A DNA stretch of 41,393 nt from Planctomycetota bacterium (lineage in GTDB: Bacteria; Planctomycetota; Phycisphaerae; WQYP01). Numbering within the stretch: position 1 is the first letter of the stretch; every line of letters begins with the position of its first letter. The position numbers were made by a program, and so were the translations under genes. Of this stretch, positions 6,856 through 41,393 are shown piece after piece. The notes beneath the pieces were generated by a model. The model had not been told where the DNA came from, searched no databases, and was given only the letters and a program-made list of their open reading frames with translations. The DNA lies in assembly GCA_021790475.1 (NCBI GenBank), contig JAJYDU010000005.1:1-41393 (forward strand). The letters run 5' to 3'.

Positions 6856-7180
6856 GCGCAATTCCGTCCCTGGAACAAGGAACCGGCTCCTCAACATTGT
6901 GCCGGGTGGAACGTGGCAATACAAGTATAATCAAGCTTGAAACGTCATACACTCTCCAGATACCAAATGCAGGTATTTTATCGCCAATTATAGCCGGAAA
7001 ACACGTTTGACACCGCTCCGGGTTGTGTTATTATATGTTGCTTGGAAACGAGGTGTTTCGTGCGGACAGATCGTGCAGCTTTCCAATCGCTGCCAGCCAG
7101 GGCGACCGGAGTACCGGCGGCCCGGGTTGTTGTCCGCGCTGCCATTGCCCCGATCGGCGGCAGGATGATCCCGGCCGCAC

Positions 7181-7247
7181 GGTAGGGCGCCCCAATTTCC
7201 CGAAATTTCGTTTTTTTCGCGCCCTGCCGATCTTAGCAGGGTTTTTT
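7181..7247 (+). promoter_or_regulatory. Attenuator-like leader: antiterminator-type stem 7181-7190/7219-7228 mutually exclusive with terminator-type stem 7222-7227/7236-7241 plus T6 tract
   Basis: GGTAGGGCGC pairs with GCGCCCTGCC (one G-U); CCCTGC-CGATCTTA-GCAGGG-TTTTTT overlaps the 3' arm of the first stem. Located about 70 nt upstream of the cimA ATG. Confidence 0.55.
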
Positions 7248-7313
7248 ATTGATGGATTCCATGAATTTCTTGAGAATATAAAGTCCCGATCCATCGGGGC
7301 AGGCGAGGTTTTT

Positions 7314-8918
7314 ATGCCCAAAGTTGAAATATACGATACAACGCTGCGTGACGGCAGCCAGGGAGAGGGAATATCCTTTTCCATCCAGGACAAAATGTTG
7401 ATATGCAAAAAGCTAGATGAATTGGGAGTGGATTTCATTGAAGGCGGCTATCCGCTTTCCAATCCCAAGGACGCGGGTTTTTTCCAGGAAGCCCGTTCCC
7501 TGCAGCTGCGGCAGGCACGGTTGGTCGCGTTTGGCATGACCCGGCGAAAAGGGGTCAAGCCCGACCAGGACGTGGGCCTGAACGCCCTGCGCGACGCGCA
7601 AACACCTTATGTAACAATTGTCGGCAAAACCTGGGATATGCACGCGACCCAGGTGCTGGAAGTATCGCTGCAGGAAAATATCGACATGATCGCCCAAAGC
7701 GTGGCGTATCTGACCAGCCTGGGCCGAAAAGTTATTTACGACGCCGAGCATTTTTTTGACGGCGTCCAGGCCAACCCGGAATATAGCCTGCAAACCATCG
7801 CGGCGGCGGCCGAGGCCGGGGCGGTGCTGGTATGCCTGTGCGATACCAACGGCGGCTCGCTGCCGGAGCGGGTCGCCCAATGGGTTGCGGCGGCGCGCCG
7901 GAAGGTAGCGGCGCCAATCGGCATTCATCCGCACAACGACAGCGGCCTGGCGGTAGCCAACGCCCTGGCAGGAGTGCGGGCGGGAGCCGTGCAGGTGCAG
8001 GGAACCATCAACGGTTTCGGTGAACGGTGCGGCAATGTGGACATCACCACGGTGATCGCCAACCTGCGGCTGAAACTGGGTTATGAATGCCTGCCCCCGG
8101 ATTCGCTGGCGCATTTAACCGAGACCGCCCGCTATGTGTACGAGGTGGCGAATCTGAATCTGGTTAACAACCAGCCTTACGTCGGCACGAGCGCCTTTGC
8201 CCACAAGGGCGGCATGCACGTACATGCGGTGAATAAAATGACCCGCTCCTATGAACACGTGGCGCCGGAAGCGGTCGGCAATACGCGGCGCATCCTGGTT
8301 TCGGAACTTTCCGGCGTTTCCAATATCGCCGCCACGGCGGGCCGAAAGTTCAACATTGAAAAAGACCGGGCGGCGCTCAAGCTGGTGCTCGATCAGGTCA
8401 GCCGGCTCGAAGCGCAGGGCTATCAGTTTGAAGCCGCGGAAGGTTCATTTGAACTGATTTTGCGGCGGCAGATCGGGCGTTACCGGAAATTCTTTGACTT
8501 GCACCATTACCGTTGCGCGGTATCCCGCCAGGAGGGGGGGCAAGTGATTACCAAGGCGACGCTTTCACTGCTGGTGGAAGGCCGGCAGATCAACGCGTTC
8601 GCCGAAGGCGACGGGCCGATCAACGCCTTGGACGCGGCGCTGCGCCAGGCGCTGGCGCCGGCTTATCCGGGCATTGCCAGTCTGCACCTGGTCGATTACA
8701 AGGTGCGGGTGGTTAATGCCACGGCGGAAACGGCCGCGAAGGTCCGGGTGGTGATTGAATTCCGCTCGCCGGAAGGGTTTTTTGGAACCATCGGCGTGTC
8801 GGAAAATATCATCGAGGCAAGCTGGCAGGCCTTGTGCGACGCGGTGGAATATCGGCTGATCCATGAACAGGAAGCCCTTGCCGCCAAGGCAATAGAGCAG
8901 GCGAGCAGGAGAAAGTAG
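7314..8918 (+). CDS. cimA: (R)-citramalate synthase (isopropylmalate synthase superfamily, CimA type)
   Basis: MPKVEIYDTTLRDGSQGEGISFSIQDKMLICKKLDELGVDFIEGGYPLSNPKD, CDTNGGSLPERV, GIHPHNDSGLAVANALAGV, GTINGFGERCGNVD, and a C-terminal LeuA regulatory-type domain. ATG at 7314 preferred over the upstream ORF start at 7023. Confidence 0.88.
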   Translation: MPKVEIYDTTLRDGSQGEGISFSIQDKMLICKKLDELGVDFIEGGYPLSNPKDAGFFQEARSLQLRQARLVAFGMTRRKGVKPDQDVGLNALRDAQTPYVTIVGKTWDMHATQVLEVSLQENIDMIAQSVAYLTSLGRKVIYDAEHFFDGVQANPEYSLQTIAAAAEAGAVLVCLCDTNGGSLPERVAQWVAAARRKVAAPIGIHPHNDSGLAVANALAGVRAGAVQVQGTINGFGERCGNVDITTVIANLRLKLGYECLPPDSLAHLTETARYVYEVANLNLVNNQPYVGTSAFAHKGGMHVHAVNKMTRSYEHVAPEAVGNTRRILVSELSGVSNIAATAGRKFNIEKDRAALKLVLDQVSRLEAQGYQFEAAEGSFELILRRQIGRYRKFFDLHHYRCAVSRQEGGQVITKATLSLLVEGRQINAFAEGDGPINALDAALRQALAPAYPGIASLHLVDYKVRVVNATAETAAKVRVVIEFRSPEGFFGTIGVSENIIEASWQALCDAVEYRLIHEQEALAAKAIEQASRRK

Positions 8919-8982: not shown

Positions 8983-9033
8983 GATCCCGACGTGTCCCGA
9001 TAACTATCGGGGCTGCTTATTGGGGTCGGGATC
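8983..9033. repeat. Nested palindromic element: outer 9-bp inverted repeat GATCCCGAC/GTCGGGATC enclosing CCCGAT-AACT-ATCGGG hairpin
   Basis: 8983-8991 is the exact reverse complement of 9025-9033; inner stem 8996-9001/9006-9011. Confidence 0.75.
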
Positions 9034-9144: not shown

Positions 9145-12100
9145 ATGAACGAAGCGCTTTCCCCTCAATATGATCCGCAAGCGGTGGAAAGCCGCATTTA
9201 TGCACTATGGCTGGAGAAAACGGGGAATTTTCACGCTGTTCCCGGTGCCGCCGGATCGCCCAAATTCAGCATGGTGATTCCGCCGCCAAATGTGACCGGG
9301 GCCCTGCATCTGGGTCATGCGATCAATGGGACCATCCAGGACATTCTGGCCCGCTATCACCGGATGAAAGGCGATAATACTCTCTGGATACCGGGGATCG
9401 ACCATGCCGGCATCGCTACACAGGCGGTGGTGGAACGAACAATTTTCGAGCAGGAAAAAAAGAGTCGCCATGACCTGGGCCGCGAAGAATTGGTCCGCCG
9501 GATTTGGCAGTGGAAAGAAAAATTCGGCAATCGGATTATTCAGCAACTCCAGCGCATGGGCGTATCCTGCGACTGGAACCGCACGCGTTTCACGCTTGAT
9601 GACATCTGCGCCCGCGCCGTGCGCGAAGCTTTTTTTAAACTTTTCAAGGATGGCCTGATCTTCCGCGGCCTGCGGCTGGTGAATTGGGACACGCACCTGC
9701 AAACTGCGGTGGCCGATGATGAAATTTACCATGAAACGGTCAAAGGCCGACTCACCTCGATTAAATATCCGCTGGTGGACCGCCGGCCCGGTGAGCCGGA
9801 ATATTTAATCGTCGCCACCACCCGACCGGAAACCATGCTCGGCGATACCGCTTTGGCGGTGCATCCGGAAGATCCGCGTTATCAAAAGCTGATCGGTCGA
9901 AAGGCGCAAGTGCCGCTGATGGGCCGGGAAATTCCCATTATCGCCGATGGACTGCTGGTGGATCCGAAATTCGGCACCGGTGTGGTAAAGGTGACACCGG
10001 CGCATGATCCGAACGATTACGCCGCCGGCCAACGGAATCATCTGCCGCAGATCAACTTGCTTACGCCGGATGGAAAGGTCAATGGGAATGGCACGGGTAA
10101 GTCTGGGTTTTGGGGCAAGAGCTTTGATTATTCCGGCCTTCGATTCGCTTCCGATGCCCGCCGCCTTGTTTTAGAAGATTTGGAAGTGCTGGGCCTGATC
10201 GCCGAGTCCAAACCATACGAACACGAAGTCGGCCACAGCGACCGCAGCAAGACCCCTATCGAGCCATATTTAAGTGAACAGTGGTTTGTTAAAATGGGCG
10301 ATGTGGAGGGCGGTATCACTCTGGGCGATGGAACCAAATCCAGTGGGCTGGCCCAGGCGGCGCTGGATGCGGTCAAGAGCGGCCGCGTGAAAATCATCCC
10401 CGCGCGCTATACCCAGGGCTATATCGACTGGCTGTCGCAGAAACGCGACTGGTGCATCAGTCGCCAGTTGTGGTGGGGACATCGGATACCGGTGTGGAGC
10501 GTATCTTGTAACCCTGGCATAGATTTTGGACATCCAACTCGTGAGGAGGCGACACAAGAAATTGCTAATAAGATCGTTGCTTATATCAGCGACGAGAAAC
10601 ATAGCAATGATTTGATTTTTCGTGTCGATACAACCTATGGTCTACCGAAGATAGTTTTTTGCTGTCGAACTACCGAGGTTGCGGAAAAGATGGAGGAACT
10701 GGCGGGCTACATCAACGCGAATGCTACAGATACTATCCATTCACCACCGCTGGAGAAAGAGTCTGACCTTCGTCTTGCACCCAAGGGTTTGAGAGAACTC
10801 ATCCGGAATAACGGCCTGACCCTCGCTATCCGCAGGTTGATGCAAGACCCCGACGTTCTGGACACCTGGTTTTCCTCCGCGCTGTGGCCGCTATCGACTA
10901 TGGGCTGGCCCGCCAACGGAATCAGCGATAAACCTGAAGATCAACTATTGCCCTATTTTTATCCCACCGGTGTACTTTCCACAGCGCGGGAAATTCTCAC
11001 TCTGTGGGTGGCGCGGATGGTGATGTTCGGCCTTTACCTGCATGGCGATGTCCCGTTCAAACAGGTTTACATCCATGCGGTGATTCAGGACGGCCAGGGC
11101 CGACCGATGAAAAAATCGCTCGGCAACGGCGTGGACCCGGTGGACATTATCGAAAGCCACGGCGCCGACGCCTTGCGCTTCACACTGGCGGGCATGGCCA
11201 CCGAAACGCAGGACATCCGTTTGCCGGTGGTCAAAGATAAAGCCACCGGAAAAAATACCAGCCCGCGTTTTGACAGCGGCCGGAATTTTGCCAATAAAAT
11301 ATGGAACGCCGCAAGGTTTATTCTTTCGAATCTGGACGAATCCCATCGGAAACATGAAATTTCAAATTTCAACTCCCCAATCATCGCCATCGCCCAGTCC
11401 GGCAAATTGGAAGATCGGTGGATTTTAAGCCGGCTCAATCAAACCGTGCGCGCGACATACGAATCGCTGGCACAGTTTCGCTTCGCCGATCTATGTTCCA
11501 CGCTCTATGGCTTCTTCTGGAATGATCTGTGCGACTGGTACCTGGAAATCGCCAAGGCCCGCCTCCAACAGAAAGATTCATCCGTGCCAACCGTGTTGCA
11601 TTATTGTCTGCAAACCAGCCTGGCGCTGCTGCATCCCGTGATGCCGTTTATCACCGAGGAAATCTTCACGCGGTTGGCGCCAACGGCGGAATCATTGCTC
11701 CTGGCCGGCCCTTTTCCTGAATATATCCGGGAATTGGATTGTCCGCGGGCGGAAAAGGAAATGGACCTGTTGCAGCGGATCATCCGCGCCATCCGCGATA
11801 TCCGCAATCAATGCAACATCGAATCGAAAAAAATCCTGGACGCGGCGGTGCTTGTCAGCGCCCACGACAGAGCAATTGTGGTGGAGAACCGGACAATAAT
11901 TGAAACGCTCTCCGGTGCGACATTACGCGAGATAAAGGAGACAGGACACAGACTATCAGACATATTTCAAAAAGATACGGTGCGGGTGATTTTACCCTGT
12001 CTGCCCGGGCACAGGCAGACCGACGTTCAAATCCATGTATCCGGCGCGGCGGACCGCCCGGCCCAAATCAAGAAGCTTGCTCAGCGGCGCCTGGAACTGG

Positions 12101-12258
12101 AAAAATTGATTGCCGCGGGCAAAGCCCGTATGGCCAATGATGGTTTTATCAGCAAGGCGCCGCCGGCGGTTGTGCAGGGACTGCGGGAACAATTATGCAA
12201 ACAGGAATCGGAATTAACGGCCATTCAGCAGCGCCTGACGGAATTGACCGGCGCCTAG
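9145..12258 (+). CDS. valS: Valyl-tRNA synthetase (with non-canonical insertion around 10498-10842)
   Basis: PPPNVTGALHLGHAINGTIQDILARYHRMKG, WIPGIDHAGIATQ, VVKVTPAHDPNDY, CISRQLWWGHRIPVW, DPDVLDTWFSSALWPLSTMGWP, GRPMKKSLGNGVDPVD, C-terminal coiled coil. Confidence 0.96.
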   Translation: MNEALSPQYDPQAVESRIYALWLEKTGNFHAVPGAAGSPKFSMVIPPPNVTGALHLGHAINGTIQDILARYHRMKGDNTLWIPGIDHAGIATQAVVERTIFEQEKKSRHDLGREELVRRIWQWKEKFGNRIIQQLQRMGVSCDWNRTRFTLDDICARAVREAFFKLFKDGLIFRGLRLVNWDTHLQTAVADDEIYHETVKGRLTSIKYPLVDRRPGEPEYLIVATTRPETMLGDTALAVHPEDPRYQKLIGRKAQVPLMGREIPIIADGLLVDPKFGTGVVKVTPAHDPNDYAAGQRNHLPQINLLTPDGKVNGNGTGKSGFWGKSFDYSGLRFASDARRLVLEDLEVLGLIAESKPYEHEVGHSDRSKTPIEPYLSEQWFVKMGDVEGGITLGDGTKSSGLAQAALDAVKSGRVKIIPARYTQGYIDWLSQKRDWCISRQLWWGHRIPVWSVSCNPGIDFGHPTREEATQEIANKIVAYISDEKHSNDLIFRVDTTYGLPKIVFCCRTTEVAEKMEELAGYINANATDTIHSPPLEKESDLRLAPKGLRELIRNNGLTLAIRRLMQDPDVLDTWFSSALWPLSTMGWPANGISDKPEDQLLPYFYPTGVLSTAREILTLWVARMVMFGLYLHGDVPFKQVYIHAVIQDGQGRPMKKSLGNGVDPVDIIESHGADALRFTLAGMATETQDIRLPVVKDKATGKNTSPRFDSGRNFANKIWNAARFILSNLDESHRKHEISNFNSPIIAIAQSGKLEDRWILSRLNQTVRATYESLAQFRFADLCSTLYGFFWNDLCDWYLEIAKARLQQKDSSVPTVLHYCLQTSLALLHPVMPFITEEIFTRLAPTAESLLLAGPFPEYIRELDCPRAEKEMDLLQRIIRAIRDIRNQCNIESKKILDAAVLVSAHDRAIVVENRTIIETLSGATLREIKETGHRLSDIFQKDTVRVILPCLPGHRQTDVQIHVSGAADRPAQIKKLAQRRLELEKLIAAGKARMANDGFISKAPPAVVQGLREQLCKQESELTAIQQRLTELTGA

Positions 12259-41192: not shown

Positions 41193-41200
41193 ATAACGGG

Positions 41201-41393
41201 TGAGTAGCGCAAGGGAATTTCACCCCACGCCCTCGCAAAACCGGACATGAGCCTCTCGACTCATCCGGCTCCCATCACCCCCGCCATGGCGGTGGGCTTG
41301 CAGCCATAGATTCATCTCCCGCCTCGCGGCGAGATTGATCCGTTGGTCGTCCGCCGGATGACACAACCCCCTCACTCCGGTTGAACACAGCTT
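41201..41393 (-). mobile_element. Group II intron, 3' portion (domains V and VI and part of domain IV); 5' part and any RT gene lie beyond the window
   Basis: Reverse complement reads GAGCCGGATGAGTCGAGAGGCTCATGTCCGGTTTTG (41236-41271), a domain V hairpin (AGC triad, GAGA GNRA loop, bulge, closing helix). It is followed by GAGGGCGTGGGGTGAAATTCCCTTGCGCTACTCAC, a domain VI-like stem with 3' terminus near 41201. Confidence 0.82.
41236..41271 (-). ncRNA. Group II intron catalytic domain V
   Basis: Pairs GAGCCGGA/UCCGGUUUU and GAGUC-GAGA-GGCUC separated by a short bulge; matches the ~34-nt domain V architecture. Confidence 0.85.

Follow-up and report, generated by a model that had tools for sequence, protein, structure and literature searches.

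We suggest that the leader of cimA, the citramalate synthase gene of the isoleucine pathway, is in this planctomycete a ribosome-mediated transcription attenuator of the ilv/trp type, which senses charged isoleucine tRNA. Our estimate of the probability of this reading is about 0.92. Sequence comparison and folding together point to a short ORF with a maintained frame, an Ile codon, alternative stems, a stop codon positioned on one of them, and recurrence of the arrangement throughout the phylum. From these we infer that the leader is actually translated, that ribosomes stall on it and that transcription terminates within it. The core mechanism of attenuation is ordinary. What appears to be new is the phylum, the gene cimA and an additional helix, P1, which involves the start codon of the leader.

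The window, i.e. the whole stretch of 41,393 nucleotides that was analysed, corresponds to contig C25; the draft genome to which it belongs comprises 2.68 Mb. cimA starts with the ATG at 7314 and occupies positions 7314–8918 of the forward strand. It is identified by NCBIfam TIGR00977 (E 1.5e-199, 663.6 bits against a cut-off of 450), which places the gene downstream of the leader in the pathway of the amino acid proposed to be sensed. Its nearest named relatives belong to Planctomycetota, with the top match (62% identity) in a Tepidisphaeraceae MAG. The next gene in the 3' direction is valS, encoding valine--tRNA ligase (9145–12258, forward strand, NCBIfam NF004349, E 2.5e-303), and valS is also found downstream of cimA in many relatives. 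Between the two genes lies a terminator-like hairpin GTCCCGATAACTATCGGGGC (8994–9013) without a strong T-run; cimA and valS may be co-transcribed.

All elements of the leader are on the forward strand. The sigma-70-type promoter TTGACA-16-TATTAT (7007–7034), with TG before the -10 box, matches the consensus at 11 of 12 positions and ends 25 nt 5' of the leader GTG. The ribosome-binding site GAGGTG (7050–7055) ends 4 nt before the start codon, and the ORF spans 41 codons from GTG 7060 to TAG 7185, encoding VRTDRAAFQSLPARATGVPAARVVVRAAIAPIGGRMIPAAR. The original prediction placed here a tiny ORF, MIPAAR (7165–7185), with a weak ribosome-binding site and one Ile codon. It does end on the antiterminator arm, but it is the tail of the 41-codon ORF, which has instead a good ribosome-binding site and three Ile codons among its last 13 codons: ATT (Ile29, 7144–7146), ATC (Ile32, 7153–7155) and ATC (Ile37, 7168–7170). 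In G016, a genome of the same genus, the second is replaced by Ser and the third is kept.

The stop codon TAG (7183–7185) lies inside the antiterminator 5' arm GGTAGGGCGC (7181–7190). The 3' arm GCGCCCTGCC (7219–7228), supported by folding and covariation, completes the 10-bp stem. It overlaps the intrinsic terminator GCCCTGC-CGATCTTA-GCAGGGT followed by T6 (7221–7247), with the stem at 7221–7242 and the T-run at 7242–7247. The stem and the overlapping terminator are thus present where they had been predicted. A third hairpin from the same prediction, CCCGA-TCCA-TCGGG (7285–7298), is also present before cimA; a role for it is unsupported, since a counterpart, with a different sequence, occurs only in G016 and nothing beyond the genus speaks for it.

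A single terminator-like site is expected in a stretch of this kind: seven such sites are found in 4 kb against 5.1 expected, so that the terminator of the window alone is not improbable. The 10-bp antiterminator has z = -1.9 relative to shuffled upstream sequence. The improbable part is the combination of the elements and its conservation. That the terminator is constitutive, with a chance ORF before it and no regulation, is therefore extremely unlikely: the promoter stands directly 5' of the leader, the genes upstream of it are on the opposite strand, and all parts are conserved.

The proposed mechanism is as follows. In the first step, transcription would start about 20 nt 5' of the GTG that opens the 41-codon leader peptide.

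In the second step, with ample Ile-tRNA, the ribosome would reach the TAG within the antiterminator 5' arm and mask this arm. The terminator at 7221–7247 would then fold and transcription would end before cimA. In the attenuators of E. coli the stop codon is placed so that the terminating ribosome blocks the antiterminator, and the stop codon of the cimA leader has the same placement.

In the alternative step, when Ile-tRNA is short, the ribosome would stall on the Ile codons (the invariant ATT at 7144, and the ATC codons at 7153 and 7168). The segment 7181–7190 would remain free to pair with 7219–7228, thus blocking the terminator, and cimA would be transcribed.

Equilibrium folding of the RNA 3' of the ribosome, a simplification since real folding is co-transcriptional, agrees with this scheme. 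When the A site is placed on one of the three Ile codons of the window leader, whichever it is, the antiterminator is predicted with a probability of 1.0 and the terminator with 0.0; moving the A site to the stop codon brings the terminator to 0.98. In the model, the antiterminator thus prevents the terminator from forming and is itself covered by a ribosome that has reached the stop. Averaged over 70 leaders, the probability of the terminator is 0.56 in the stalled state versus 0.93 at the stop; it rises by more than 0.5 in 27 leaders and falls by as much in none, and over half of the 70 do not switch in equilibrium folding. In G016 the switching fails or becomes inconsistent when the RNA 5' of the ribosome is included in folding.

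The leader is conserved within the family. CimA was searched in 28 family genomes, 25 of which have the gene, and the leader was found in 19 of the cimA upstream regions (window included), distributed over eight genera; one further upstream region ends at a contig edge. None of the 19 deviates from GAGGTG, the GTG start or ATT as the Ile codon. The 3' motif containing ATT was located irrespective of frame, and still the distance from GTG to ATT is always a multiple of three (75, 78, 84, 90 or 93 nt), with no in-frame stop in between in any of the 19. The best promoter box ends 24–28 nt 5' of the leader start in 18/19; the promoter is clear in 14/19 (TTGAC[A/C/G]-16/17 with a -10 box) and weaker in genus g8. 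The conserved start, ribosome-binding site, promoter and frame suggest that the short ORF is translatable. A single invariant Ile codon is, on the other hand, few for a classical attenuator.

An intrinsic terminator is present in 9/24 family cimA upstream regions, with 0.7–2.7 obtained by shuffling for the family and non-family sets. The leader ORF is present in genera g6, g8 and g9, where a clear U-tract terminator was not seen, and no leader was found in the cimA upstream regions of genus g4. Thus, the attenuation mechanism is not uniform even inside the family. Genera g6, g8 and g9 may use a different exit, either translation or Rho, or control may have been lost in them. In genus g9 (L086, L094) the leader ORF is followed by a very strong hairpin without a T-run before the cimA ribosome-binding site, with the arms GTAACGCCGC../..GGCGGCGTTAC in L086, and this may point to an exit other than intrinsic termination. 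In genus g10 (L087, L089–L093, L096) a conserved hairpin with the TATAAT-like sequence GGCGGTAAATCCTTATAATGCC lies between the terminator and cimA; it is possibly a second promoter, bypassing attenuation.

The same arrangement recurs outside the family. Our set comprises 145 cimA upstream regions from outside the family, most of them planctomycete. By a strict rule 72 of them contain an intrinsic terminator, while 149 dinucleotide shuffles give about 2.7 (~2%). In the ORFs that stop just 5' of the terminator, we took the highest count of each amino acid over the last 18 codons and applied the same rule to shuffles. The mean for Ile is 3.75 versus 1.20 in shuffles (z = 21.5); Val is next with z 6.6, and every other amino acid has z below 4. 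All these z-scores overstate independence, since some genomes in the class and phylum sets are related to each other. Examples of Ile-rich ORF ends are SSIIIICKITGSS, AIARIIIIPLEIG and AVRAGIIIVPVV, each followed directly by the stop codon. Hence, the comparison of upstream regions called for by the original prediction gives recurrence of the leader ORF, the Ile codon and the terminator.

The position of the stop codon recurs as well. It lies within the antiterminator arm in 45/68 leaders, against 18.2 for random placement. Among 81 terminator-bearing cimA leaders, window included, 21 have an in-frame TAG within GGTAGG[G/C], and all of these close an Ile-containing frame. This recurrent GG-TAG-GG, the form also found in the window, pairs with the terminator CCCTGCC. 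Across lineages terminators and stop codons vary in concert (GGTAGGGC/GCCCTGCC; CTTAGGGC/GCCCTGAG; CCTGAGG/CCCTCAGG). The mean z of the antiterminator duplex over the 81 leaders is -1.7.

Covariation of both alternative stems, for which the original prediction looked to relatives, is found there. In 34 stop-anchored leaders with good pairing, 49 antiterminator cells are changed on both sides versus 23.6 in shuffles, and 75 terminator cells versus 27.4; none of 500 shuffles reaches the score of either stem. The antiterminator register was chosen for maximal pairing and rows with fewer than 6/8 pairs were dropped, so that the percentage paired is inflated; moreover, related sequences cannot count as independent. 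Together with conservation, folding, the kept frame and the codon content, the covariation strongly backs the predicted attenuator with mutually exclusive stems.

Neither the window nor 20 related loci gave anything relevant at the gathering threshold when scanned with Rfam 15; the best subthreshold match on the stretch (E 1.8) is to an unrelated sRNA. This agrees with the earlier remark that the leader could be matched neither to a T-box nor to a known riboswitch class. A T-box binding uncharged tRNA-Ile would suit the pathway, and the terminator/antiterminator geometry would suit it too. However, no Rfam T-box match appears even at E up to 10, and a conserved translated frame is not a feature of T-boxes; the probability of this alternative is close to nil.

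A second gene of branched-chain synthesis offers a comparison. leuA (2-isopropylmalate synthase) of the same genome has its own leader, encoding MTQQATRLNLPELVLIPITIGNRS, and a strong terminator. Its TAG is followed by GGT, which is complementary to the terminator 5' arm. A terminator is present in 24/24 family leuA upstream regions, where the ORFs are rich in Leu (z 9.5) and not in Ile (z -1.5). With Leu-rich leaders before leuA and Ile-rich leaders before cimA, the leader codons follow the pathway, as expected for attenuation. The locus L002 (G000:C143:1376-2860) and L181–L203 show the Leu-rich leuA leader attenuator: its TAGGGT stop lies within the antiterminator arm, and its terminator is strong. 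Genus g4, without the cimA leader, keeps the leuA leader. No leader is obvious upstream of the ilvB gene in the genome that carries the window.

The element which sets the cimA leader apart is helix P1, formed by the 5' arm GTGCGGACAG (7060–7069), containing the start codon, and the 3' arm TTGTCCGCGC (7130–7139). The start codon is thus paired to a stretch that lies right before the Ile codon. Across 27 leaders, drawn from several families, 93.6% of the cells are paired, 5 of the 10 pairs are changed on both sides, and the covariation score is reached by 0/500 shuffles. Judged by this covariation of sequences, the helix is real, while its interior is poorly conserved. In 17/150 class genomes, all of the same family, a covariance model of the P1 region has a single hit each, located 5' of cimA; the diverged P1 of other families was found by regular expression and inspection. 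The leader of G010 (L088) forms P1 as GTGCAGAGACAT/ATGTCTCTGCGC and keeps the helix, the frame and the Ile codon with a changed peptide (VRT to VQR, VRA to LCA). Hence, the helix and the frame, and not the peptide, are conserved.

We know of no described attenuator with a start-codon helix like P1. From the geometry, a ribosome stalled at the ATT would cover the P1 3' arm. Our guess is that P1 would close the start codon once the ribosome has passed and would open during stalling on the Ile codon. P1 might then be a distinct attenuator design, in which the stalled ribosome keeps its own start site open for the next one and the ribosome at the stop lets the start close, an idea that we advance tentatively and regard as rather doubtful. 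P1 could also set the default state of the window leader. In the model the untranslated window leader favours the antiterminator (0.72), and with the start region blocked it passes to the terminator (0.97). The G016 leader, when untranslated, has the terminator at 0.99 from the outset, therefore the flip upon blocking the start is not a common property. Classical attenuators usually terminate when untranslated.

P1 also bears on the alternative that a metabolite-binding riboswitch or another structured RNA controls the terminator, the ORF being incidental. P1 and GAGGTG are conserved as RNA, and G010 retains the helix via compensatory changes which alter the peptide, as such an alternative would have it. 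Nevertheless it is very unlikely, because every indel between GTG and ATT is a multiple of three, the enrichment of Ile codons extends over the phylum amid unrelated surrounding sequence, the P1 interior varies, Rfam gives no match and leuA has Leu-rich ORFs at the equivalent place. The original prediction left open an amino-acid or a riboswitch signal; what is conserved is the reading frame and the Ile codon, which favours amino-acid attenuation and leaves the riboswitch aside.

A leader-peptide attenuator might also respond to a nascent-peptide arrest motif (VRAxI) or to a shortage of valine, and not to isoleucine. The VRAxI motif is common to several families, GTT GTT GTC stands just upstream in the window and in G016, valS follows cimA and Val is the second enriched residue. 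However, G010 has LCAAI in place of VRAxI with P1, frame and ATT persisting, P1 pairing largely determines VRA and the starting VRT, the Val run does not extend beyond the genus and the phylum-wide enrichment is that of Ile. We consider this alternative unlikely. VRT...VRAxI as an arrest peptide was set aside, as G010 alters the peptide and keeps the helix and the frame.

The cimA leader is similar to the enterobacterial ilvGMEDA and ilvBN leaders (also trp, his and leu), which have a short ORF with branched-chain codons and an antiterminator/terminator pair. Unlike these, it precedes cimA, belongs to another phylum, has in this family no run of control codons (one invariant Ile) and carries the extra P1. 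In his and trp the pause or first hairpin (A:B or 1:2) lies inside the leader ORF, 5' of the antiterminator, and is opened by the translating ribosome. P1 differs in that it joins the start codon itself to a segment lying 14 to 5 nt upstream of the Ile codon, and it encloses 50–70 nt. The ilvB-II uORF of Corynebacterium and the ilvB-OMG motifs have a uORF rich in branched-chain codons before a biosynthesis gene, and in ilvB-II the lengths are divisible by three and the terminator overlaps the antiterminator (PMC10272879). The cimA leader is like them in its uORF with branched-chain codons and differs in the gene (ilvB) and in the lineages, with no Rfam relation found. Leader peptides with terminators also precede the branched-chain genes in the actinobacterial ilvB/leuA/trp set, where the LEU element of leuA forms a pseudoknot in which the Shine-Dalgarno sequence of this gene takes part (PMC1262725). 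The planctomycete leuA has here an ordinary terminator, in contrast to that pseudoknot.

According to a survey of 2010, leader peptides had until then been known only in Proteobacteria and Actinobacteria, to which it added Firmicutes (PMC2965389). Leader-peptide attenuation is described mainly in the first two phyla and in one Firmicutes case, and in the open-access literature we found none published for planctomycetes or for cimA. For Planctomycetota the present analysis suggests phylum-wide attenuation of cimA, and of leuA in this family, with codons matching each pathway. This offers, for the phylum, a branched-chain amino-acid switch open to direct testing; the start-codon helix, for its part, poses a puzzle of how leader translation is gated.

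Last, a stretch at the contig end of the window (41199–41273, reverse strand) matches the Rfam model for a group II catalytic intron domain with 53.5 bits.
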